From Ardenticatenia bacterium (GTDB taxonomy: Bacteria > Chloroflexota > Anaerolineae > 4572-78 > NAK82), in assembly GCA_003130875.1 (NCBI GenBank), contig QEXY01000123.1, positions 18,972 through 82,971 of the forward strand: a stretch of 64,000 nt of DNA. Reading direction: 5' to 3'. Position numbers and translations under genes: made by a program. Under the pieces are notes generated by a model. It searched no databases. It was not told where the DNA came from and was given only the letters and a program-made list of their open reading frames with translations. Shown here in pieces: positions 48,628 through 61,628 of the stretch (positions are counted from its first letter, which is position 1; each line of letters starts with the position of its first letter).

Positions 48628-49794
48628 ATGCGCACATCAATGATCCCCGACAGCGACTATGAACGTCGCATCGCACGGTTGCAGGAGGAGATGGCGAAGG
48701 CTGACCTGGATGTACTGGTAACCTATTCCTCCGAATCGGAGCCGGCCAGCAGCCGCTATCTGGCTGATTTCTGGCCCTTTTTTGATTTTGCTGGCGTGGT
48801 AGTGCCACGCGAGGGTCCAGCAGCGCTGATCACCGGCGGACCCGAGTCGTTTGAGTTTGCGCGCCAGTTTTCGCGCATTAAGAATATCCACATCCATCCC
48901 CTGTTTGTCGAGACCTCGGCGCCCGACTGGGTGCCACCAGTACAATATGAGGATTTCAGCAGTATTCTCAAGGCGGTGTGCCCGCGACCGCCGCGGCGCA
49001 TTGGCGTGGCGGACTGGAACATCTTCCCGCACTCCATCTTCCTCGACTTGCAGAAAGCGGCAGGCGACGCGGAAATCGTCCCCGCCGACGACGTGCTGTT
49101 GCGCGTCAAAGCGATCAAGTCCCCCTATGAGATTGCCGTGATCCGCAAAGCGTACTGGATCACCGAGCAGGCGATGATCGATGTGCTCAACGTAGTGCGT
49201 GAGGGGCAGGCGGAGTGGGAGATTGAAGCGATTGCCCACACGACGATGCGTCGCCTGGGTGCGGAGGGCACCTCGTATCCCATCTGGGTATGTTCGGGTC
49301 CTAACACGCGCCAGAGCTTGTGTCGTTCTACCAATCGGCGCATCCGGCGCAATGAGCTGGTGCAGCTCACCTTTGGTGCGCGCTATATGGGCTACTGCGG
49401 CAACATGTGTCGGCCGTTTGCCATCGGCAAGGTGCCCGAAAAGGCGCGCCAGCTGATGCGCGTGGCGTTGGAGGCGTTCGAGGGCGCCTTGCGCGACATC
49501 CGTCCCGGCGCGACGGCGCAACAGGTGTTCGAGAACTACCATAAGACCCTTTCGCGCTATGGATTTGAGGAGTTCACCCTGTATGGCCCCGCCCATGGCA
49601 CCGGGTCCTCTGAGGTGGAGGGGCTGTGGCTGGGCAAGGGGAGCGACCTGGTCATCCAGCCGGGCATGCAATTCAACATCGACATCTGGCTGAACGACGG
49701 AGAGTATGGCCTGCGCTACGAGGATGGCATCGTGGTCACCGAGACGGGCCTGGAGGAACTGACTTCCTATCGTCGTGAGATCATTGAGCTGTAA
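48628..49794 (+). CDS. M24-fold (Xaa-Pro peptidase/creatinase-like) protein lacking metal ligands
   Basis: 388 aa with the creatinase N-terminal domain (1-150) and a pita-bread M24 domain (170-388). Active M24 peptidases need Asp, Asp, His, Glu, Glu as metal ligands. The matching positions here read Thr248 (LTFGARY), Asn259 (GNMCRPF), His323 (PAHGTGSSEVE), Asp352 (NIDIWL) and Glu365 (RYEDG), so two or three ligands are lost. Creatinase has this fold and no metal, so a metal-free hydrolase is possible. AAGGAGG lies upstream. It is the first gene of an operon with an M20 peptidase and a cyclase-family gene. Confidence 0.85.
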   Translation: MRTSMIPDSDYERRIARLQEEMAKADLDVLVTYSSESEPASSRYLADFWPFFDFAGVVVPREGPAALITGGPESFEFARQFSRIKNIHIHPLFVETSAPDWVPPVQYEDFSSILKAVCPRPPRRIGVADWNIFPHSIFLDLQKAAGDAEIVPADDVLLRVKAIKSPYEIAVIRKAYWITEQAMIDVLNVVREGQAEWEIEAIAHTTMRRLGAEGTSYPIWVCSGPNTRQSLCRSTNRRIRRNELVQLTFGARYMGYCGNMCRPFAIGKVPEKARQLMRVALEAFEGALRDIRPGATAQQVFENYHKTLSRYGFEEFTLYGPAHGTGSSEVEGLWLGKGSDLVIQPGMQFNIDIWLNDGEYGLRYEDGIVVTETGLEELTSYRREIIEL

Positions 49795-49837
49795 CATCTG
49801 GGGTGGATAGCGCCACCGCTTAAGGGAGATCATGCCG

Positions 49838-51130
49838 ATGGACAAGCGTAAACTCGCACAAGAGATTGTGCACCGTTACCGCTACGAGGTCATCCAGGTT
49901 GCCACAGATGTGCTGCGCATCCCCTCACAGAATAAGCCACCGCTGGGTGAGGAGAAAGCAGTCCAGGAGTTCATGGCGACCTATCTGGCGCGTGCCGGCC
50001 TGCCCGTGGAGCTCTACCAGCCCGATCAGGTGCCCGGCATGCGCGAGCACCCGGAGTTCTGGCCAGGACGTGACTATACCAACCGTCCCAACCTGTCCTC
50101 GAAGCTGAAAGGCAAAGGAGGAGGGCGTTCGCTGCTGCTGACCGGACACTGTGACACTGTCGCGTTGGGTGAAAACGTATGGACGCATCCCCCGTTTGCC
50201 GCTGAGATTCACCAGGGCAAGATGTACGCGCTGGGCGCCTCGGATATGAAGGGGCAGCTCGCCGCCATGTTGGTGCTCTACAAGGCAATCGCCGAGGAGG
50301 GCATCCCGTTGCGCGGCGACCTGGCGTTCGAGTCGGTGGTGGATGAGGAGGAAGGGGGTGTGAATGCTACCATCGCCGGCCGCCTGCGCGATGGGGTGAT
50401 GGACGCGGCTATTCTGCCCGAAGCGACCGGGCTGGACATTTATCCGGCGGTGCGCGGGGCGCTCATCCTGAACGTTTATTTCAGCGGAGCGGGCACGTGG
50501 CTCGAGGTGGGCAAACAGGCGCAACAGGCGGACGCAGTGGCGCAGCTAGGCCTCTTCCTCTATTACCTCGACGAGTTGCGCCAGAAACGGCGCAGCCATC
50601 CGGTGCCGCCGCTCTATCAATCCTATTCTGACCCAGCGCCGTTACAGGTGACCAAAGTGTATGGAGGTGGCTGGGGCAGCGAGGTGCCTATCGCCGTGCC
50701 GAACGAGGTGCGGGTGGAGCTGATCGCGCAAACGCTGCTTGGCGAGGAGAAAGAGGCATGTCGGCAGGAATTCGACGCATGGTTGGAAAGCGTCGTCGCA
50801 CGCCATCCTGAGGCATTTCCCACGCCTCCGCGCGTCGAGCCGAAGTTGCGTTGGATGTACCCCAGCCAGACCGAGCCAACGCACCCTTTGGTGACCACAT
50901 TGGCCGCATGCGCCTCTCAGGTGTTGGGCCGTCAGCCCACCATCAAGGGAGCACCTTATTCGTGCGATCTGTGGGCACTGCATCGCTTGTTCGGCATACC
51001 TGCCGTGGTCTTCGGGCCAACAGGGGGCAATTCCCACGCCGCTGATGAATACGTCGAGGTGGAGAGCCTCTTCGCCTTCCTGGAGAGCCTGTTGCTGTTC
51101 ATTCTCGAATGGTGTGAGGTGGCAGAATGA
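49838..51130 (+). CDS. M20-family metallopeptidase (ArgE/DapE/CPG2 type)
   Basis: 430 aa from ATG 49838 (AAGGGAG nine bases upstream; the track ATG at 49832 is too close). Catalytic motifs are LLTGHCDTVALGENVW (metal His, Asp), GASDMKGQ (bridging Asp), VVDEEEGG (general base and metal Glu), LPEATGLD and, at the C-terminus, FGPTGGNSHAADEYVEV (metal His). Such enzymes deacylate or cleave N-acyl amino acids and dipeptides. All catalytic residues appear intact, unlike its two operon partners. Its stop overlaps the next ATG (ATGA). Confidence 0.92.
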   Translation: MDKRKLAQEIVHRYRYEVIQVATDVLRIPSQNKPPLGEEKAVQEFMATYLARAGLPVELYQPDQVPGMREHPEFWPGRDYTNRPNLSSKLKGKGGGRSLLLTGHCDTVALGENVWTHPPFAAEIHQGKMYALGASDMKGQLAAMLVLYKAIAEEGIPLRGDLAFESVVDEEEGGVNATIAGRLRDGVMDAAILPEATGLDIYPAVRGALILNVYFSGAGTWLEVGKQAQQADAVAQLGLFLYYLDELRQKRRSHPVPPLYQSYSDPAPLQVTKVYGGGWGSEVPIAVPNEVRVELIAQTLLGEEKEACRQEFDAWLESVVARHPEAFPTPPRVEPKLRWMYPSQTEPTHPLVTTLAACASQVLGRQPTIKGAPYSCDLWALHRLFGIPAVVFGPTGGNSHAADEYVEVESLFAFLESLLLFILEWCEVAE

Positions 51131-51816
51131 GCCGCTGGATCGATCTTTCCGGACCGTTGTTCATTGGGATGTGGAGCTATAATGTGTTAGGTGGGTTGCC
51201 GCGACCGCTCACCGAATACCATGTGGAAAAGGAGTTCCGCATCGCCGAGGTGGGTTTCGAATCGTTGCGCTATATGTTAAGCAGTCTGTCGGGCACCTAT
51301 CTGGAGACGGCGGGTCATCTCATCGAGGGAGGACCTGCCCTGTCCGACTTTCACGTGACCGACTTCATCCGTCCAGCGGTGGTGTGCCACCTGCCACGCA
51401 AGGGGCCGCGTGAGCTCATCCGGCGTGCTGAGTTAGAGGCACATTGTCCGCCAGTGCGTCCAGGTGACGCACTGCTGATCGAGTGTGGCTGGGGGGCGCA
51501 GTGGCGCTCGCCCAACTTCGTGAGCGATGGGCCTGCGTATCATCCCGATTGCGCCGAGTGGCTCTATGCGCAGCCGTTCAGCATCTTGGGCGTAGATGTG
51601 CCGTGCATCCAGGCGCCTTATCCCCTGCCGGATGGCAGCCAGTATGATGGGAACATCCTGCTGCCCATCTTTCAGAAGGGGGTGTTGCTATTGGCCCCGC
51701 TGGTCAATCTAGATCAGGTGACGACGGAGCGCGGAGAGATCATCGCATTGCCATTGTACGCCGAAGGTGTCAGCGGCGCGCCGTGTCGCGCCATCTTCTG
51801 GGAAGAGAGCCGCTAA
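51127..51816 (+). CDS. Cyclase-family (kynurenine formamidase-like) protein with altered metal motif
   Basis: 229 aa. WIDLSGPLFIGMWSY at the start and the fold-wide pattern match the PF04199 cyclase family (formamidases, isatin hydrolase). The family metal motif HxGTHxDxPxH aligns with residues 54-64, LSGTYLETAGH: the first two His are Leu and Tyr, Asp is Glu and Pro is Ala; only the last His remains. Later motifs GVDVPCIQAPYPLPDGSQYDGN and PLVNLDQV are family like. Catalysis may therefore differ. It is translationally coupled to the M20 gene. Confidence 0.8.
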   Translation: MSRWIDLSGPLFIGMWSYNVLGGLPRPLTEYHVEKEFRIAEVGFESLRYMLSSLSGTYLETAGHLIEGGPALSDFHVTDFIRPAVVCHLPRKGPRELIRRAELEAHCPPVRPGDALLIECGWGAQWRSPNFVSDGPAYHPDCAEWLYAQPFSILGVDVPCIQAPYPLPDGSQYDGNILLPIFQKGVLLLAPLVNLDQVTTERGEIIALPLYAEGVSGAPCRAIFWEESR

Positions 51817-51822
51817 CAGGAT

Positions 51823-51863
51823 GTGCGTGCCCCGGGCCGTTGTCGCAGCGCCAGGGCACGCAC
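51823..51863. terminator. Bidirectional hairpin between the convergent catabolic operons
   Basis: GTGCGTGCCC (51823-51832) pairs with GGGCACGCAC (51854-51863), ten pairs. It sits between two convergent operon ends, which supports a terminator role despite the lack of a T-run. Confidence 0.6.
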
Positions 51864-51885
51864 ACGCACCACGCTTTACTAAACT

Positions 51886-52899
51886 TCACTCAAAGTCTTG
51901 TACGGAGACCACCTTGCCGGTGGCAGCGGATGCCTCCGCTGCCAGACACGCCTGCACCGCGGCCATCGATTCCTCCGGTGTGATGATGGTGGGGGGCGTT
52001 TTCTCCAGGATGCAGGTGATAAAGTAGTTCAGCTCCTCCGCCAACGCACCACCCCGCACACCCGGACGGATCTCAGGCCAATAGGTGGGATCTGGGGTGT
52101 AGGCCCCATGCTTGTCCACCACGGACACAGGCGGGTAGGTCTCCTGTAGATAGACCCCACCCTCCGTGCCGATGATCTCCATCCGCTCGTCGGGAAAATA
52201 GCCCTTGTGGTCCGGCATACACCAGACGTTTTCCAGAACGCCGATGGCACCGCTGTCGAAGCGATACATCGTCCATCCGATGTCAGGATATTTGTGCCCA
52301 TGGACATTGAGCGTCTGAGCATAGGCGCTCACGATCTTGGCCCCGGTGTACCAGAGCATGATATCGGTGTCGTGCACGCCATCGCCGATGATCGGTCCAA
52401 TTTTGGGCAGCACCTGGGCACCGATGGAGACCGGCACATTGCGACGCGCATAGATGGACACAATCTTGCCGATCTTGCCAGCAGCGATCTCACGCTTCAC
52501 GGCGGCGTAGCGTGGATTGAAGCGCACAATGTGACCTACCATGAAGAACTTGTCGGACGCCTTGGCCGCTTGCACGATAGCGCGACAATCTGCCACTGTG
52601 GAAGCCATCGGCTTCTCTAAGAAGACATGTTTGCCCGCCTGGATCGCGGCCAGGGTGGGCGCTGTGTGCTGATCCCACATCGTGGTGATGCTCACCGCCT
52701 CCAGCTCGGGGTCGGCCAGCATCTCATTGTAATCGGTGTAGAGCTTGGTCACGCCGAACTTTTTGCCCAGTTCCTTGAGGCGTGACTCGGTGCGCGTGCA
52801 GAGCGCGTATAGCTCCACGTTGGGCAGGCCGGCGAGTGCCTCACCGTGATATTCGCCGAACCAGCCCAGCCCAATAATGCCATATTTGACCTTCGCCAT
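51886..52899 (-). CDS. Gfo/Idh/MocA-family oxidoreductase
   Basis: 337 aa. The N-terminal Rossmann fold has YGIIGLGWFGEYHGEALAGLP and the catalytic Lys lies in VFLEKPMA near residue 97. The substrate domain has GDGVHDTDIMLWYTG, with the His used in inositol dehydrogenase-type catalysis. The family oxidises or epimerises sugars and polyols with NAD(P). It is the last gene of the minus-strand operon running from the ROK gene. Confidence 0.92.
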   Translation of the reverse strand: MAKVKYGIIGLGWFGEYHGEALAGLPNVELYALCTRTESRLKELGKKFGVTKLYTDYNEMLADPELEAVSITTMWDQHTAPTLAAIQAGKHVFLEKPMASTVADCRAIVQAAKASDKFFMVGHIVRFNPRYAAVKREIAAGKIGKIVSIYARRNVPVSIGAQVLPKIGPIIGDGVHDTDIMLWYTGAKIVSAYAQTLNVHGHKYPDIGWTMYRFDSGAIGVLENVWCMPDHKGYFPDERMEIIGTEGGVYLQETYPPVSVVDKHGAYTPDPTYWPEIRPGVRGGALAEELNYFITCILEKTPPTIITPEESMAAVQACLAAEASAATGKVVSVQDFE

Positions 52900-52948
52900 G
52901 GTGACAGAACCTCCTTGTCGAGAACTTCACCTCTGCCCAGCAGAGGGC

Positions 52949-53296
52949 TTATGACGAGCCACCCTTGTGCCAGTCCTTGCCCACTTTGCTTTCCATGAAT
53001 TCCCAGACGACGCCGTCCTTGTGTACAAAGACCACGCGCAGATCCGGGGTGGGGTTGAATGGACCCAATATCACCTCGGCGCCTTCGATCTCTTTTTCAA
53101 GGTTGTCCACGCGGAACGCGATGTGTGGCAATGTGCGCAACGGACCTGTGACCGGGCTGTCGGGCTCGTAGCGCAGATACTCCACCATTTGAGGACTGTT
53201 GGCCGGATTGGTGACCCACACCCGGGTGGACTCGACGAACATCTCGTCGGGGTGTTTTTCGGTGGTGGGCAACCCGATGTGGTCAAACTCTCTCAT
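52949..53296 (-). CDS. VOC-superfamily (glyoxalase-like) protein
   Basis: 115 aa from ATG 53296, preceded by GAGGAGGG eight bases upstream; the track start is ten codons early. MREFDHIGLPTTEKHP has the first metal His (DHIG), LPHIAFRVDNLEKEIEGAEVILGPFNP the second half start and VVFVHKDGVVWEFMES the final Glu. VOC proteins use a metal to handle small metabolites (isomerases, dioxygenases, glyoxalases). It probably acts on an intermediate of the local pathway; the substrate is unknown. Confidence 0.85.
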   Translation of the reverse strand: MREFDHIGLPTTEKHPDEMFVESTRVWVTNPANSPQMVEYLRYEPDSPVTGPLRTLPHIAFRVDNLEKEIEGAEVILGPFNPTPDLRVVFVHKDGVVWEFMESKVGKDWHKGGSS

Positions 53297-53376
53297 CTTT
53301 GAAACCCTCCTCTTCATCAAGCGCACGCTGCACCGAGCCGCTCACACTGGACGGTGGAGGTGCAGTGGGGAATCGC

Positions 53377-54294
53377 TCAACTCATATGGATTTCCACGTT
53401 GTCCGCCACACCACCGAGGAGCACGTAACGGGTGGGCGCTGTTTGCAGGATCGAGCCAGGCACGAAGGTGTTGACCGGCCCATGCGCCACTAAGCGGGCG
53501 ATAAAGCGCTGCCAGCTAACTCCACCTCCCAGATAGCCGTCCAGCCAGAAGCTGCGATAGCGCGCTCCCAGGATCTGTGCCGGCCCGATCGTGTTTGCCT
53601 TGGGCGGCACCCATGACCAGTCGCCGCCGAACGAGTGCAGAGCATTCTGCATAATTGTCATCGGAGTCAGCGTCACCAGCCGGGGGCCCGCCTTTTTGTA
53701 CGCCTCCAGGTCATCGCCGAACTCATAGCCCAGCGACGATTCCCAGAACGCAATATGCCCACACCAGCCGATGCCGCCGTAACAGACATCGGCACCTCCC
53801 AGCTCCTCGATCATCTCCGCGTAGCGCGGCAGTGCCTCGGTTGTGGGGAAGTGGATTTGGCTGAGCGGTGGCCGCAGTTCGGGGTCGATCAGGTTGAAGA
53901 AACTGTCGAACATCGCTTTCTGGAAGGAACCTTCCCAGTCCGGCGGCGCGGTGCGACCGTTCTCGTCGGCATACTCGTCCATGTTGAAGGTGTGGACATG
54001 GTGCATCGGAATGCGCAGCGCGTTGATCATGCGCGCGGCAATAGGGTACTGCGGCATCGGGCCTACGGGGAAGATGCCCACGAAGCGTCGCCCTTCGTCC
54101 AACGCTTGCTTGATGCGCATTACGATATCGGTGGCGAAGGCGGCATAGAATTCGCCGGGGTCGTCGATGATCTCGATTTTGAAATCCGGGTTCGGGTGCT
54201 TCGTGATCTCCTCACGCTTGATACGTCGCACCCGCTCACAAACCGCTGCGTCCTTAAAGTCAAGAAAATCTGCCAGAGCGTATGTGAAAGCCAT
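53377..54294 (-). CDS. NagB-like (glucosamine-6-phosphate deaminase family) protein, copy 2
   Basis: 305 aa. The fold is NagB/6-phosphogluconolactonase like: FVGIFPVGPMPQY for the phosphate loop, FNMDEYAD (Asp106, matching NagB Asp72) and GGIGWCGHIAFWESSLG. In NagB the last motif is GxGxDGHIAFNEP with catalytic Asp141-His143-Glu148. Here Asp is Cys178, while His180 and Glu185 remain. A NagB-type ring-opening mechanism may be changed. It is about 85% identical by eye to the adjacent 54320 gene, a tandem duplication. Confidence 0.85.
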   Translation of the reverse strand: MAFTYALADFLDFKDAAVCERVRRIKREEITKHPNPDFKIEIIDDPGEFYAAFATDIVMRIKQALDEGRRFVGIFPVGPMPQYPIAARMINALRIPMHHVHTFNMDEYADENGRTAPPDWEGSFQKAMFDSFFNLIDPELRPPLSQIHFPTTEALPRYAEMIEELGGADVCYGGIGWCGHIAFWESSLGYEFGDDLEAYKKAGPRLVTLTPMTIMQNALHSFGGDWSWVPPKANTIGPAQILGARYRSFWLDGYLGGGVSWQRFIARLVAHGPVNTFVPGSILQTAPTRYVLLGGVADNVEIHMS

Positions 54295-54319
54295 CCGTAT
54301 TCCTCCTTCTGTTTTTGAA

Positions 54320-55234
54320 TCAGCTCATACGAATTTCAACATTGTCCGCCACACCTCCTAGCAACACGTACCGCGTGGGGACGGTCTGCAAGATGGAACC
54401 AGGCACAAAGGTATTGACGGGCCCATGGGCTACTAACCGGGCAATAAAGCGCTGCCAGCTGACGTTGCCGGTCAGATAGCTCAGCCAGAAACTGCGATCG
54501 CGCGCGTTGACCACCTGCGCTGGACCAATCGTGTTCGCCTTGGGTGGCACCCACGACCAGTCACCGCCAAATGAGCTGAGAGCGTTTTGCATAATGGTTA
54601 TGGGCGTGAGCGTCACGAGGCGGGGACCCGCTTTCATATAAGCTTCCAGGTCGTCACCGAACTCATAGCCCAGCGAGGATTCCCAGAAAGCGATATGGCC
54701 GCACCAGCCGATGCCGCCGTAACACACATCCACACCACCGACTTCCTCGATCATGTCGGCGTAACGCTCGAGCACATCCGTCGTAGGGAAGTGGATTTGG
54801 CTAAGCGGCGGGCGCAGCTCGGGATCGATCAGGTTGAAGAAGTTGTCGAACATGCACTTTTGGAAGGAGCCCTCCCAGTCGGCCGGGGCCGTGTTGCCGT
54901 TTTCATCGGCATATTCGTCCATGTTGAAGGTGTGGACATGGTGCATCGGGATGCGCAACGCGTTGATCATGCGCGCCGCGATAGGGTATTGAGCGGTGGG
55001 GCCCACCGGCAGGATCATCACGAAGCGTCGCCCTTCATCCAACGCTTGCTTGATGCGCGCCACAATATCTGTGGCAAACGCTGCGTAGAAGTCCTTCTCA
55101 TCCTCGATCACTTCGATCTTGAAGTCTGGGTTGGGATGCTGGGTGATCTCCTCGCGCTTGATGCGTCGCACTCGCTCACAAACTTCGCGGTCTTTGAAGT
55201 CCAGAAAATCGGCCATGTTGTACTGGAAGGGCAT
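54320..55234 (-). CDS. NagB-like (glucosamine-6-phosphate deaminase family) protein, copy 1
   Basis: 304 aa, the upstream member of the tandem pair. It has the same motif set (FNMDEYADENG, YGGIGWCGHIAFWESSLGYEFGDDLEAY, WSWVPPKANTIGPAQ, HGPVNTFVPGSILQ) and the same Asp-to-Cys change in the NagB catalytic motif. Differences cluster at residues 70-80 (FVMILPVGPTAQ) and 250-262. Retention of both copies with identical active-site changes suggests function, perhaps with different substrates or as a hetero-oligomer. It is spaced 25 bases from copy 2 and 12 bases from the upstream gene. Confidence 0.85.
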   Translation of the reverse strand: MPFQYNMADFLDFKDREVCERVRRIKREEITQHPNPDFKIEVIEDEKDFYAAFATDIVARIKQALDEGRRFVMILPVGPTAQYPIAARMINALRIPMHHVHTFNMDEYADENGNTAPADWEGSFQKCMFDNFFNLIDPELRPPLSQIHFPTTDVLERYADMIEEVGGVDVCYGGIGWCGHIAFWESSLGYEFGDDLEAYMKAGPRLVTLTPITIMQNALSSFGGDWSWVPPKANTIGPAQVVNARDRSFWLSYLTGNVSWQRFIARLVAHGPVNTFVPGSILQTVPTRYVLLGGVADNVEIRMS

Positions 55235-55246
55235 GGGTTTCTCCTT

Positions 55247-56248
55247 TTATAAGGTGACCACCTGGTCAGTTTCCAGCGAGCGCCGTGCGGCCAGGGCGGT
55301 TTGTACGGCCAGGCGCGCCTGTTCTGGTGTGCCGCGCTCCGGAAGTCGGTTGGCGCGCACACATTCGACGAAGTAGGCGACTTCTGCCTCGTAGGCGTCG
55401 CTACCTGGCGAGGGCAATGCGCGGGGCGGTTTGCCCGACTCGTACACCATCAAGCTGGTGCCCTCGGCGGTGCCTGTCTCCACGCCGGTGCCACCAGCGC
55501 GGAAGTTGAACTCGGCGGAGCCCTGCTCGCACAACACCGCTAAGCTCATTGTAAACGGATACCCATCTGGCATCATCACGCTGCCCTCAGCATAGGACTT
55601 GACATCGCCGTAGTCCACCAGCGTCAACACGTGATCCCAGCCGCCATAGACCCCACGTTGGCCGCGCGCGTACACCGAACGGGGCGTCCCGAAGAACCAG
55701 TTCAGCGTGTCCAGGTCGTGAATGTGCAGATCCAGCACGGCGCCACCTGTCCAGTCTGCATTGGCGAACCAATCGCCCCATCTGGGCCGGGTGGAGAGCC
55801 GTCTGGCGACCGCGGCCAGCGGTCTGCCCAGCGTGCCGCTGGCGACGAATTCATGCAAGGCGACATATTCGGGCCAGAAGCGGATCACATGCGCGATCAT
55901 GAACGGCCTGCCCGCCGCTCGCGCCGCCGTGATCATGGCATCGCATTCCTCGACGGTCAGTCCCATCGGCTTCTCGAGCAGAACCGCTTTGCCCGCCTGC
56001 AATGCCGCAATGGTATACTCTTTGTGAAAAGGTGTGGGCAACGTGTTGCTGATGACATCTACGCTGGGATCGGTCGCCACTGCCATATGATCCAGAGAAG
56101 CGCGTGCCCCCACTTCCTGGGCGAGGGCGGCTGCCTTCTCCATCGTGCGCGAGGTCACCGCGACCACCTGCACATCCGGTAGTTTGGCAAAGGCACGGGC
56201 GTGCGTGCTGCCCATAAAACCGGCACCAAGCACTCCTACGCGGATCAT
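55247..56248 (-). CDS. Gfo/Idh/MocA-family oxidoreductase
   Basis: 333 aa. The N-terminus IRVGVLGAGFMGSTHARAFAKLPDV is the NAD(P) Rossmann loop; VLLEKPMGLTVEECD carries the catalytic Lys; GGAVLDLHIHDLDTLNWFFG is the substrate-domain His motif. It is only distantly like the other oxidoreductase in this operon. It probably oxidises a sugar or inositol derivative before or after the isomerase and NagB-like steps. Confidence 0.92.
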   Translation of the reverse strand: MIRVGVLGAGFMGSTHARAFAKLPDVQVVAVTSRTMEKAAALAQEVGARASLDHMAVATDPSVDVISNTLPTPFHKEYTIAALQAGKAVLLEKPMGLTVEECDAMITAARAAGRPFMIAHVIRFWPEYVALHEFVASGTLGRPLAAVARRLSTRPRWGDWFANADWTGGAVLDLHIHDLDTLNWFFGTPRSVYARGQRGVYGGWDHVLTLVDYGDVKSYAEGSVMMPDGYPFTMSLAVLCEQGSAEFNFRAGGTGVETGTAEGTSLMVYESGKPPRALPSPGSDAYEAEVAYFVECVRANRLPERGTPEQARLAVQTALAARRSLETDQVVTL

Positions 56249-56279
56249 GAGTGTTCTCCCCCGTCTTCTCGAATGGGTC

Positions 56280-57083
56280 TCAGCTGAGACCGAGCTGTTT
56301 CAGGTGAGCATAGGAGGCTTTCATTGCGCGGTGTACCTCTTCCAGCGGCGGCCATGGCTCCCCGCTGAACTCGAGCTCGACGCTAAACGGGTTGGTGTAG
56401 CCTTCTTCTTCGAGAATCTTGAGCACGCGCGCGAAGTCGACCGTTCCCTCTCCGATGGCGGGGAAGTCCCACACCCCCTTGCCACCGCGCTTGTCCTTGA
56501 GGTGTACATGGGCGAGGTAAGGCACCACCGGTCGGATATCGTCCACCGCCTGTACACCGCCGTAGAAGACGCAATTGCCTGTGTCATAGTTGATGCGCAC
56601 ATTGGCACGGTTGATCTCTTGGATGAGTGGGATGGACAAGGCGCCGGTCGCCATGATGTCGCCATGCACCTCGAGCGCCAGGAAGACGTTGCGACGCGCT
56701 GCGTAGTCGGCCAGCTCGAAAATATGGCGCATGAAAGCGGCTTTGTCCTCTTCTTTGCCAGCATGACCGCCCACCGCTGTGTTCATGAGATGAACTCCCA
56801 GCCGGACGCACAGGTCTATGGCTTTCTTACCGTCCGCCAGACCTTGCGGCGTGGTGAGGTCGGAGTGGCCGCTGAGCGCTGAGATGCGCAATCCAGCCCT
56901 CTCGACCTGATCCTGGATGCGAGCAATTTGTTCATCCGTGGCTTCGAGCGGCACATGCTCGGTCCACCCGCGCACGGCGCTCAATTCGACATACTTGAAC
57001 CCGGCCTGTGCGATGCCTTCCAGCGCCTGTTCCAGGCTATACGTGTGGTAGCTGTTTGTGTTACCTGCCAGGATGTTATGCAT
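56280..57083 (-). CDS. Xylose-isomerase-like TIM-barrel sugar epimerase/isomerase
   Basis: 267 aa. The AP-endonuclease-2 type barrel shows a metal site: Glu in FLALEVHGD, Asp in INYDTGNC, His in LAHVHLKDKRG and Glu in FSVELEF. The family includes hydroxypyruvate isomerase, tagatose/allulose epimerases and inosose dehydratase-like enzymes. The start ATG 57083 has GGAG upstream. A long structured leader lies between this gene and the ROK gene. Confidence 0.88.
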   Translation of the reverse strand: MHNILAGNTNSYHTYSLEQALEGIAQAGFKYVELSAVRGWTEHVPLEATDEQIARIQDQVERAGLRISALSGHSDLTTPQGLADGKKAIDLCVRLGVHLMNTAVGGHAGKEEDKAAFMRHIFELADYAARRNVFLALEVHGDIMATGALSIPLIQEINRANVRINYDTGNCVFYGGVQAVDDIRPVVPYLAHVHLKDKRGGKGVWDFPAIGEGTVDFARVLKILEEEGYTNPFSVELEFSGEPWPPLEEVHRAMKASYAHLKQLGLS

Positions 57084-57120
57084 TGAGCGTACTCCTTTCT
57101 AGTCTGGACTCTTTGTTCGT

Positions 57121-57211
57121 GACCTTCTACAAGGTCATCTCATTCGAGTGCCTACGCCCTGTGGGATCGGTCCTCCCACTACTCTTCTATCTCAGCGTCT
57201 CTTGTAGAAGG
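57121..57211 (-). ncRNA. Structured leader between the ROK gene and the catabolic genes
   Basis: CCTTCTACAAG (57123-57133) and CTTGTAGAAGG (57201-57211) are perfect 11-base inverted repeats. Inside lies GTGGGA/TCCCAC (57161-57179). GACCTT/AAGGTC (57121-57136) can form a small competing hairpin over one arm. Mutually exclusive folds suggest attenuation or a processing site ahead of the isomerase gene. It matches no riboswitch class I can name. Confidence 0.4.
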
Positions 57212-57251
57212 GGAGGATCCGAACGCTATGCAGCCTGAGGTGGAGGGTGTG

Positions 57252-58454
57252 TTATGCCTGCATCTTTTGCACGAAGACCCCTTCGTCTGTTTCGAACAGC
57301 GCCATCGCGAGCGCTCCAAGCACGGCGGCGTCCGTCCCCAGCTGCGAGATCACGAGTTCCGGAATATATGGCAATGCGCCGTTGAGACGTGCCGTAATGC
57401 GTTCTATGAACATATCAGCGAACTCCACCAAGTCGCCGCTGAAGATGATGCGATGGGGATCCAACACACAGCTGAGGCTCGCCACTGCCAGCGCGAGGTG
57501 GTCTGCTATCTCGTCCACAATCTGGAGGGCGCATCCGTCTCCCCTGCGCGCGGCGAGGAGCACCATCTCGGCAGTCAGCTGCACATCCTTGTCCTCCAGC
57601 CATTCCCGCAGGATGGAGCTCTGGTCTGAGGCGAGCTTCTCTTGCGCGCGTCGCACAATGCCGACGCTGCCTGCCAGGTCTTCCAGACACCCGAAACCTT
57701 CGTAAGAGCGTCCCAGGTATTGGGTGCCGGGCAGAAGATAGCCGATCTCCCCCGCAGCGCAATGGGCACCGCGATAGAGGAAGCCGGAGAGCACAATGCC
57801 TGCTCCGATGCCGGCGCCCAATGAGATACACACCAGATTGTCGACATCGCGGCCGGCTCCGCGCCAGCTTTCGCCCAACGCGATGAGGTTCACCTCGTTT
57901 TCAACGAAGACGGGCAAGCCGAGCGCCTGTTCCAACAACGCCTTGAGGGGCACATTGCGCCAGCCGAGGCTGGGTGCCCACGCCACCACGCCCTCGCGGT
58001 AGAAAACAATTGACGGCGCCCCAATACCCACCCCACGCACAGGGAGCTCATATTCACGTGCCATGTCGTAGAGAGTGCGTACCAGAGCAATGAGCTGTTG
58101 GATGCCCGCTTCGCCGGGTTCTGCCGGTTGAGCCACCCGCCTGAGGATCTCCCCGTTCAAATCAGAGATCGCGCCGGTCATACTGCGGTGGACGTACACC
58201 CCAATGATCAGACTGGCGCGTGGATTGAACTCCAGCAGGATGGGACGTCGTCCAAAAGGTGCTAGACGTGCTCCTCTTTCTTGGATTACCTGCTTTTGCA
58301 ACAATTCTGTGACGATACGGGTGACCGTGGCGGGGCTGATGTGAAGCAGCCGAGCGATCTCAGAACGGCTGATGGGGCCCTGTTCTCGGATGAGCTCAAG
58401 GATGGCGGACTGATTGACTCTGCGCAGCAAGCTGCCATCGCCGATGTGGTTCAT
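57252..58454 (-). CDS. ROK-family transcriptional regulator
   Basis: 400 aa from ATG 58454 (MNHIGDGSLLRRVNQ); the track TTG at 58478 adds eight residues. The winged helix is NQSAILELIREQGPISRSEIARLLHISPATVTRIVTELL. The sugar-kinase-like domain has ISLGAGIGAGIVLSGFLYRGAHCAAGEIGYLLPG. The usual ROK zinc motif (CxCGxxGC) is reduced to GFGC and the preceding GEIGH is GEIGY, so zinc is probably not bound. It likely represses its own operon until a sugar ligand binds. Confidence 0.9.
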   Translation of the reverse strand: MNHIGDGSLLRRVNQSAILELIREQGPISRSEIARLLHISPATVTRIVTELLQKQVIQERGARLAPFGRRPILLEFNPRASLIIGVYVHRSMTGAISDLNGEILRRVAQPAEPGEAGIQQLIALVRTLYDMAREYELPVRGVGIGAPSIVFYREGVVAWAPSLGWRNVPLKALLEQALGLPVFVENEVNLIALGESWRGAGRDVDNLVCISLGAGIGAGIVLSGFLYRGAHCAAGEIGYLLPGTQYLGRSYEGFGCLEDLAGSVGIVRRAQEKLASDQSSILREWLEDKDVQLTAEMVLLAARRGDGCALQIVDEIADHLALAVASLSCVLDPHRIIFSGDLVEFADMFIERITARLNGALPYIPELVISQLGTDAAVLGALAMALFETDEGVFVQKMQA

Positions 58455-58532
58455 TGGACCATCCGTCTGGGCACTCAAATGAAGCTTAGGGCTACCCCAT
58501 GACGCTGCAATGTGTCGCGGTCGGTGGGATTC

Positions 58533-58577
58533 ATTTCATTACGAAATAAATATATCATGATCTCAGGAATTTGTCAA
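58533..58577 (-). promoter_or_regulatory. ROK promoter with adjoining palindromic operator
   Basis: On the minus strand: TTGACA (58577-58572), 17-base spacer, TATATT (58554-58549), an almost consensus promoter. The last bases of the -10 run into TTATTTC-GTAAT-GAAATGA, a palindrome with one mismatch (ATTTC/GAAAT arms at 58533-58547). TTATTTC-N5-GAAATAA is a typical ROK operator shape, so autorepression is likely. Confidence 0.75.
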
Positions 58578-60626: not shown

Positions 60627-61628
60627 ATGTACAATAAGGTCGTGAAATTTGTAACATGGGAGCATGGACGAAGCTTGCATTTGCGTGCTCTGAGTGGGAT
60701 GTTCGCAGCCCTGATCATGTTAACAGCGTGTTTGCCGTGGGGGGGCGGTGTCCGTGAACAGCGCTTGCGGGTGGGTTTGTTGCCCATCCTCGACACATTG
60801 CCCTTCTATGTGGCAGAGCAGAGGGGTTATTTTCAAGTGGAAGGGGTCACGGTCGAGCTCGTTCCTGTGAAGGGGGCGCAGGAGCGCGATGCCCTGATGC
60901 AGGCGGGTGAGATCGATGGCATGTTGACCGATCTGGTTGCAGTTGGCCTTTTCAACCGTGAGAAGGCGCAGCTGCACGTGATCGCCACTGCGTTACGCGC
61001 GACTCCTGATGCCGCTATGTTTCGTGTGTTGGCGGCGCCCGAGAGTACGCTGCGCACAGTGCAGGATCTGGCTGGCGTGACGATCGCCATCAGCCAGAAC
61101 ACTATCATCGAGTATGTCACCGAGCGCCTTTTGACAACGGAAGGTCTGACGCGCGGACAAATCCAGACACTGGAGGTCAGTGCCATCCCAGTGCGTTATG
61201 AACAGCTGATGGCTGGCCAGGTACAAGCCGCCACGCTGCCCGACCCGTTGGCATCGGGCGCCATAGCCGGCGGTGCCCATTTGATCGTGGATGACACCCG
61301 GCACAGTCAGTATTCCCAAACCGTGCTGGCTTTCTCGCACAGCAGTGTGGAGGGCAAGCCTGAAGCGGTGCGAGGCTTCCTACGCGCATGGAATCGGGCA
61401 GTGGACGACCTGAACAGTCGCCCAGCCGATTTCGCTGACCTGCTCATTGAAAAGGGCAGGGTGCCTGACAACGTGCGCGGCACCTTCCGCATGCCCCCCT
61501 TCCCCAAAGGTGACTTGCCCTCTTCGGCGGAGTGGGAGGATGTGATGCGCTGGATGGTGGAGAAAGGGTTGCTGGATCGCGCACTGCCGTATGCTGAGAC
61601 GGTCTTGAGCACATTTCGCGCTCGCTGA
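60627..61628 (+). CDS. NMT1/SsuA-type substrate-binding lipoprotein
   Basis: 333 aa. The signal ends in the lipobox LTAC (Cys near residue 36). The type 2 binding fold shows LRVGLLPILDTLPFYVAEQRGYFQVEGVTVELVPVKGAQERDALMQAGEIDGMLTD, a common start for NMT1/THI5-like receptors of thiamine precursors, nitrate, sulphonates and similar ligands. Later it has AGVTIAISQNTIIEYVTERLL and GQVQAATLPDPLAS. No permease or ATPase gene is adjacent. It may feed a distant transporter. Confidence 0.85.
   Translation: MYNKVVKFVTWEHGRSLHLRALSGMFAALIMLTACLPWGGGVREQRLRVGLLPILDTLPFYVAEQRGYFQVEGVTVELVPVKGAQERDALMQAGEIDGMLTDLVAVGLFNREKAQLHVIATALRATPDAAMFRVLAAPESTLRTVQDLAGVTIAISQNTIIEYVTERLLTTEGLTRGQIQTLEVSAIPVRYEQLMAGQVQAATLPDPLASGAIAGGAHLIVDDTRHSQYSQTVLAFSHSSVEGKPEAVRGFLRAWNRAVDDLNSRPADFADLLIEKGRVPDNVRGTFRMPPFPKGDLPSSAEWEDVMRWMVEKGLLDRALPYAETVLSTFRAR

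Follow-up and report, generated by a model that had tools for sequence, protein, structure and literature searches.

Introduction

Amino sugars constitute a large reservoir of organic nitrogen. In the textbook pathway bacteria phosphorylate them before NagA and NagB act. The M24 fold of creatinase and ectoine hydrolase catalyses despite altered sites. In NagB, the glucosamine-6-phosphate (GlcN6P) deaminase, Arg172 and Lys208 are phosphate-binding positions. A contact between His143 and Glu148 of this enzyme has been reported (PMC4008608) and the Ser/Thr-rich N-terminus of a helix binds the 6-phosphate (PMC4281351). The M24 relative DddP is a metalloenzyme (PMC4108388), so that unusual members of this family can still use metal, and in the levoglucosan pathway an unphosphorylated sugar is oxidized at C3 and passes through beta-elimination, hydration and reduction, with two dehydrogenases and two annotated sugar phosphate isomerases (PMC7676230). 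Here we describe a ten-gene locus in a 64-kb stretch of DNA (contig QEXY01000123.1, the window) from an uncultured Anaerolineae bacterium, in which NagB-like and M24 proteins stand beside two Gfo/Idh/MocA dehydrogenases, a TIM-barrel protein and a ROK-family regulator. This is a real and conserved catabolic locus, assembled from variants of known enzymes and probably undescribed. A search of the open-access literature returned no description of such a locus, and the proposal in a first-pass annotation of the window that it is undescribed is plausible. Its most general part, judged from sequence, is a NagB-like family that appears to lack the phosphate site.

NagB-like proteins

The two NagB-like proteins match no Pfam family at 1e-3, and against TIGR00502, the equivalog model for GlcN6P deaminase, they score 62.8 and 72.7 bits (cut-off 236.9). 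An AlphaFold model of NagB-like 1 (predicted local distance difference test, pLDDT, 92.4) has the NagB fold, its best PDB matches being GlcN6P deaminases (1dea, 5hj5 and 7lqn; template modelling scores 0.66-0.71 by query length). The equivalents of Asp72, His143 and Glu148 (D106, H180 and E185) are invariant in 48 sequences and the motifs FNMDEY and GGxGxxGHIAF are likewise shared with NagB. In contrast, the position of Asp141 (C178) is Cys in 82 and Ser in four of 86 sequences (at least 450 bits), Asn147 is replaced by W184, the Ser/Thr-rich phosphate loop TGGT reads PVGPxxQ, the segments carrying Arg172 and Lys208 are replaced, and about 40 residues are added at the N-terminus. The 6-phosphate-binding features of NagB are thus missing, although it should be noted that pocket geometry was judged from sequence only. 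The first-pass annotation had placed substitutions at catalytic or metal residues of the M24, cyclase and NagB families; this holds for the first two (see below), whereas for the NagB-like proteins it holds only for Asp141 and the phosphate site, the Asp72, His143 and Glu148 positions being retained.

The family recurs at 63-92% identity across many phyla. A PIG-L (N-acetylglucosamine, GlcNAc, type) deacetylase lies within 6 kb of the NagB-like gene in 34 of 80 loci and is adjacent on the same strand in 23 of the 80, where chance would give about 2% of such windows (a rough estimate from six PIG-L genes in the 3.5-Mb host genome); the nearest curated model for these neighbours is BshB1, below its cut-off. 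Together with the NagB fold, these recurrent neighbours support the link to amino sugars drawn from the first reading. A widespread NagB-like family without the phosphate site suggests a second, unnoticed amino-sugar route, and would correct the misleading annotation 'glucosamine-6-phosphate deaminase'.

Three further observations concern these proteins. Elsewhere the family (L015-L094, many phyla) occurs without M24 and frequently beside a BshB1-like PIG-L protein. The tandem duplication (53377-55234, 87% identity) is common to the congeneric genome G001, and a second member of the genus, G002, shows a single copy, NagB-like 2. A second, divergent NagB-clan family (GGWGQDGHIAYNQ, HMDECLDW; L125:7440-8330, L129:8145-9083 and L164:9378-10268), without a Pfam match, adjoins the M24-M20-cyclase genes in genomes G004 and G182; a PfkB kinase is close to it in G004 as well as in the host genome.

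M24, M20 and cyclase-family proteins

At the five metal positions of the M24 fold, canonically D-D-H-E-E, the protein has T248, N259, H323, D352 and E365, and the canonical ligand set is therefore absent. This T-N-H-D-E pattern is identical in every M24 ortholog (75-95% identity), the pocket residues are invariant and the ratio of nonsynonymous to synonymous substitution (dN/dS) is 0.02-0.05. The fold is shared with creatinase and the ectoine hydrolase DoeA, which also have altered sites, but in sequence the protein is nearer the prolidases and its invariant pattern is its own; matches to creatinase and ectoine hydrolase reach 39-49 bits (49 bits to creatinase 1chm), and the curated DoeA equivalog models give 68-77 bits against cut-offs of 575-613. 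Because of the creatinase and ectoine hydrolase precedents, and since DddP is a metalloenzyme, metal-free catalysis is not proven from altered motifs alone. The fixed subfamily would be a further case of a metallopeptidase fold apparently put to other chemistry. A paralogous M24 family at 37-38% identity, present in some of the same genomes (L109, L110, L111 and L127:7041-8555), reads N-S-H-D-E and has also lost the canonical site. The ortholog in G006 (L105/L134; genome 71% complete) is broken by one in-frame TAG, either a mutation or an assembly error.

The M20 protein carries the metal-binding H, D, E and H motifs (GHCD, SDMKG, DEEEG and HAADEY). In the cyclase-family protein the motif HxGTHxDxPxH has become SGTYLETAGH, with the last His retained and the canonical metal motif lost; Y58, E60 and H64 persist in five relatives, the most distant of them at 44% identity. 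It shares PF04199 with KynB and isatin hydrolase, and its predicted model matches their fold at low confidence (pLDDT 66), but the HxGTHxD motif of those enzymes is replaced here.

Conservation of the locus

Occurrence was followed across 298 genomes from the class, with ortholog cut-offs of at least 75% (M24), 65% (NagB-like), 68% (TIM) and 61% (cyclase) identity. M24 was found in 12 genomes, NagB-like in 17, TIM in 10 and cyclase in five. All 12 M24 genomes, which span four families, carry the NagB-like gene (hypergeometric 8e-18, by genus 9e-14, not corrected for relatedness), and M24 is present in eight of the 10 TIM genomes. A wider search across the phylum found no further M24 ortholog in a draw of 400 genomes.

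In three related Anaerolineae (G105, G292 and G300) eight of the locus families form one unidirectional operon. The run in G105 (L122) and G292 (L123) is ROK, an NMT1-type importer (ATPase, permease and binding protein), TIM, GfoB, VOC, GfoA, NagB-like, M24 and M20, with a PIG-L gene between GfoB and VOC in L123 only; in L124 (G300) the core is the same but the importer is missing, its VOC being seen on the same contig as L038. These operons, with the co-occurrence in the panel, bear out the first-pass view of the two gene groups as one system and contradict the counter-case it named, in which the operons are never found together. Its other counter-case, substitutions unique to one strain and under relaxed selection, is contradicted by fixation in the orthologs and by low dN/dS. 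Comparison within the genus (G001 and G002) by the Nei-Gojobori method gives dN/dS of 0.01-0.08 for all genes of both operons, including those of the variant enzymes; several dS values exceed 1 and are approximate. The changed residues are thus under strong purifying selection, and these ratios together with the invariant sites rule out relaxed selection or pseudogenes.

Locus layout and regulation

The locus (48628-58478, Table 1) holds ten open reading frames, all open and intact, in two convergent groups with a hairpin at the junction, as had been read from the sequence at first, and searches with Pfam and NCBIfam agree with the families named then, weakly for VOC (PF00903, E 0.053) and at scores under every curated threshold for the NagB-like proteins. 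On the plus strand the order is M24, M20 after a 37-bp gap and cyclase with a 4-bp overlap; on the minus strand it is ROK, TIM, GfoB, NagB-like 1, NagB-like 2, VOC and GfoA, spaced 12-50 bp apart save for the 168 bp that follow ROK. GfoA and GfoB have the EKP lysine and D-x3-H motif of the Gfo/Idh/MocA family and the TIM protein has intact metal-ligand motifs, so that these three and the M20 protein have the canonical motifs that the earlier description as intact implied. There is no sugar kinase in the locus.

Table 1. Features of the locus, in coordinates of the window.
Feature	Coordinates	Strand	Evidence or remark
M24/creatinase-fold protein, altered metal site	48628..49794	+	PF00557 2.7e-39
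M20 peptidase/deacylase	49832..51130	+	PF01546 3.8e-29
Cyclase-family protein, most metal ligands replaced (SGTYLETAGH)	51127..51816	+	PF04199 4.7e-16
Hairpin between convergent operons, probable convergent terminator	51822..51864	.	11-bp stem
Gfo/Idh/MocA dehydrogenase A (GfoA)	51886..52899	-	best curated match UDP-GlcNAc 3-dehydrogenase, sub-threshold
Small VOC/glyoxalase-like protein	52949..53326	-	weak PF00903; kept in related loci
NagB-like protein 2 (GGIGWCGHIAFWE)	53377..54294	-	NCBIfam below cut-off, alignment
NagB-like protein 1, tandem paralogue 87% identical to NagB-like 2	54320..55234	-	AlphaFold pLDDT 92.4
Gfo/Idh/MocA dehydrogenase B (GfoB)	55247..56248	-	Pfam/NCBIfam, catalytic motifs intact
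Xylose-isomerase-like TIM-barrel isomerase/epimerase/eliminase	56280..57083	-	PF01261 6.9e-39
ROK-family repressor (NagC/Mlc-like), winged helix-turn-helix	57252..58478	-	PF00480, NF047937
Palindrome ATTTCGTAATGAAAT, likely ROK operator (predicted)	58533..58547	.	directly downstream of -10
Sigma-70-type promoter of ROK gene, TTGACA-17-TATATT	58549..58577	-	11/12 match

The hairpin first placed at 51823-51863 is real: its minimum free energy has z = -2.7 and none of 200 shuffles folds as well, and it lacks a U-run. At the equivalent site G001 and G002 have unrelated perfect 13-bp hairpins; as these differ in sequence and keep their place, a convergent-terminator-like element is maintained. The ROK protein has both the helix-turn-helix and the ROK domain, and a similar promoter precedes its gene in G001, G002 and L122-L124. 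The palindrome ATTTCGTAATGAAAT is kept in G001 and G002 with a varied centre and has an equivalent, CTTTCTTTCAGAAAG, at the same position in L122-L124. With such a regulator, promoter and palindrome the locus looks inducible, as was first suggested. A stretch resembling ATTTC...GCAAAT before M24 sits within the 3' end of a Fur-family gene.

Discussion

The reading that we favour, tentatively and short of calling it probable, is that the locus breaks down an N-acylated amino-sugar compound by an unphosphorylated route, as a single catabolic system under ROK control. The substrate would probably be an amino sugar that carries an amide- or amino-acid-like group, which the M20, M24 and cyclase-like proteins may hydrolyse, the M24 protein perhaps by a creatinase-like mechanism with the canonical two-metal site unused. 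GfoA, TIM and GfoB could provide a set of oxidation, elimination or isomerization, and reduction on the sugar in the style of the levoglucosan pathway. The NagB-like proteins would then open the ring and isomerize and deaminate the free 2-amino sugar to ketose and ammonia. The conserved Asp/His/Glu set would serve this reaction, with Cys178 standing where NagB has Asp141 and with the phosphate anchor missing, and ROK would repress its own promoter and the downstream genes until a sugar ligand appears. The nearest working analogue of the sugar half is LgdA-B1-B2-C (PMC7676230), likened by gene types and not by orthology, which also combines two Gfo/Idh-type dehydrogenases with TIM-type proteins on an unphosphorylated sugar; in contrast, the window locus has one TIM protein only, and NagB-like, M20, M24, cyclase and VOC proteins in addition.

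Several observations weigh against this reading. PIG-L is absent from the window locus, its nearest relative in the host genome (about 50% identity) lying in another ROK/TIM/Gfo operon. Certain other NagB-like loci carry PfkB or FGGY kinases or a DegT aminotransferase; the enzyme may therefore serve more than one pathway, and a phosphate could be added at another carbon. About 0.9 Mb separates the halves of the locus in G004. The NMT1/THI5-type importer of G105 and G292 is not of the usual sugar type and its binding protein has no close ortholog in the host genome; an NMT1/THI5-like protein at 60627-61628 was rejected as importer, since it is an orphan whose neighbour is a polyprenyl synthase and which has no adjoining permease or ATPase gene. 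Finally, no ROK palindrome precedes the M24 group, nor does the 64-kb window hold a good second site, and joint regulation of the two groups in the host genome is thus unsupported.

The separation in G004 also fits the idea that two independent units are merely adjacent, M24-M20-cyclase acting on an amide- or peptide-like compound and ROK-TIM-Gfo-NagB on a sugar. Both halves are present and apart in G004 and in G182, where M24-M20-cyclase is joined to a different NagB-clan protein (and in G004 also to a PfkB kinase), but we consider this idea unlikely given the single gene run in G105, G292 and G300, the NagB-like gene in all M24 genomes and the overlap with TIM in eight of 10. Catabolism of a cyclitol or inosamine (rhizopine-like), in which the Gfo/Idh proteins would serve as inositol-type dehydrogenases, the TIM protein as inosose dehydratase and the NagB-like protein would act later on a ring-opened amino-deoxy compound, would fit the good scores of both Gfo/Idh proteins against inositol 2-dehydrogenase, the weak one of TIM against IolE, and the DegT aminotransferases and Gfo proteins adjoining other NagB-like genes; it is quite improbable, however, as every score is far under the curated cut-offs, the locus contains no further iol-type genes and the PIG-L neighbours suggest N-acetyl amino sugars. 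A third alternative, that the variant M24 and cyclase-like proteins do not catalyse but bind or regulate as pseudoenzymes, agrees with the change of three of five metal positions in the one and of most ligands in the other, but is also quite unlikely in view of the invariant M24 pocket, the very low dN/dS and the catalysis by creatinase and ectoine hydrolase with altered sites.

Returning to the unphosphorylated amino-sugar route, a broader version extends it to many phyla, with PIG-L and a NagB-like free amino-sugar deaminase replacing NagA and NagB, joined in some Anaerolineae to an M24 hydrolase with a non-canonical site that acts on amino-sugar conjugates; as a whole we hold this to be doubtful. 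In four Armatimonadota-type loci (L019, L020, L021 and L023) the NagB-like gene stands with PfkB, MFS and Gfo genes, and PIG-L is present in three of the four. The host genome has a further locus of ROK, PIG-L, TIM-like, Gfo-like and sugar ABC genes (L183:3125-13227), possibly a sister pathway.

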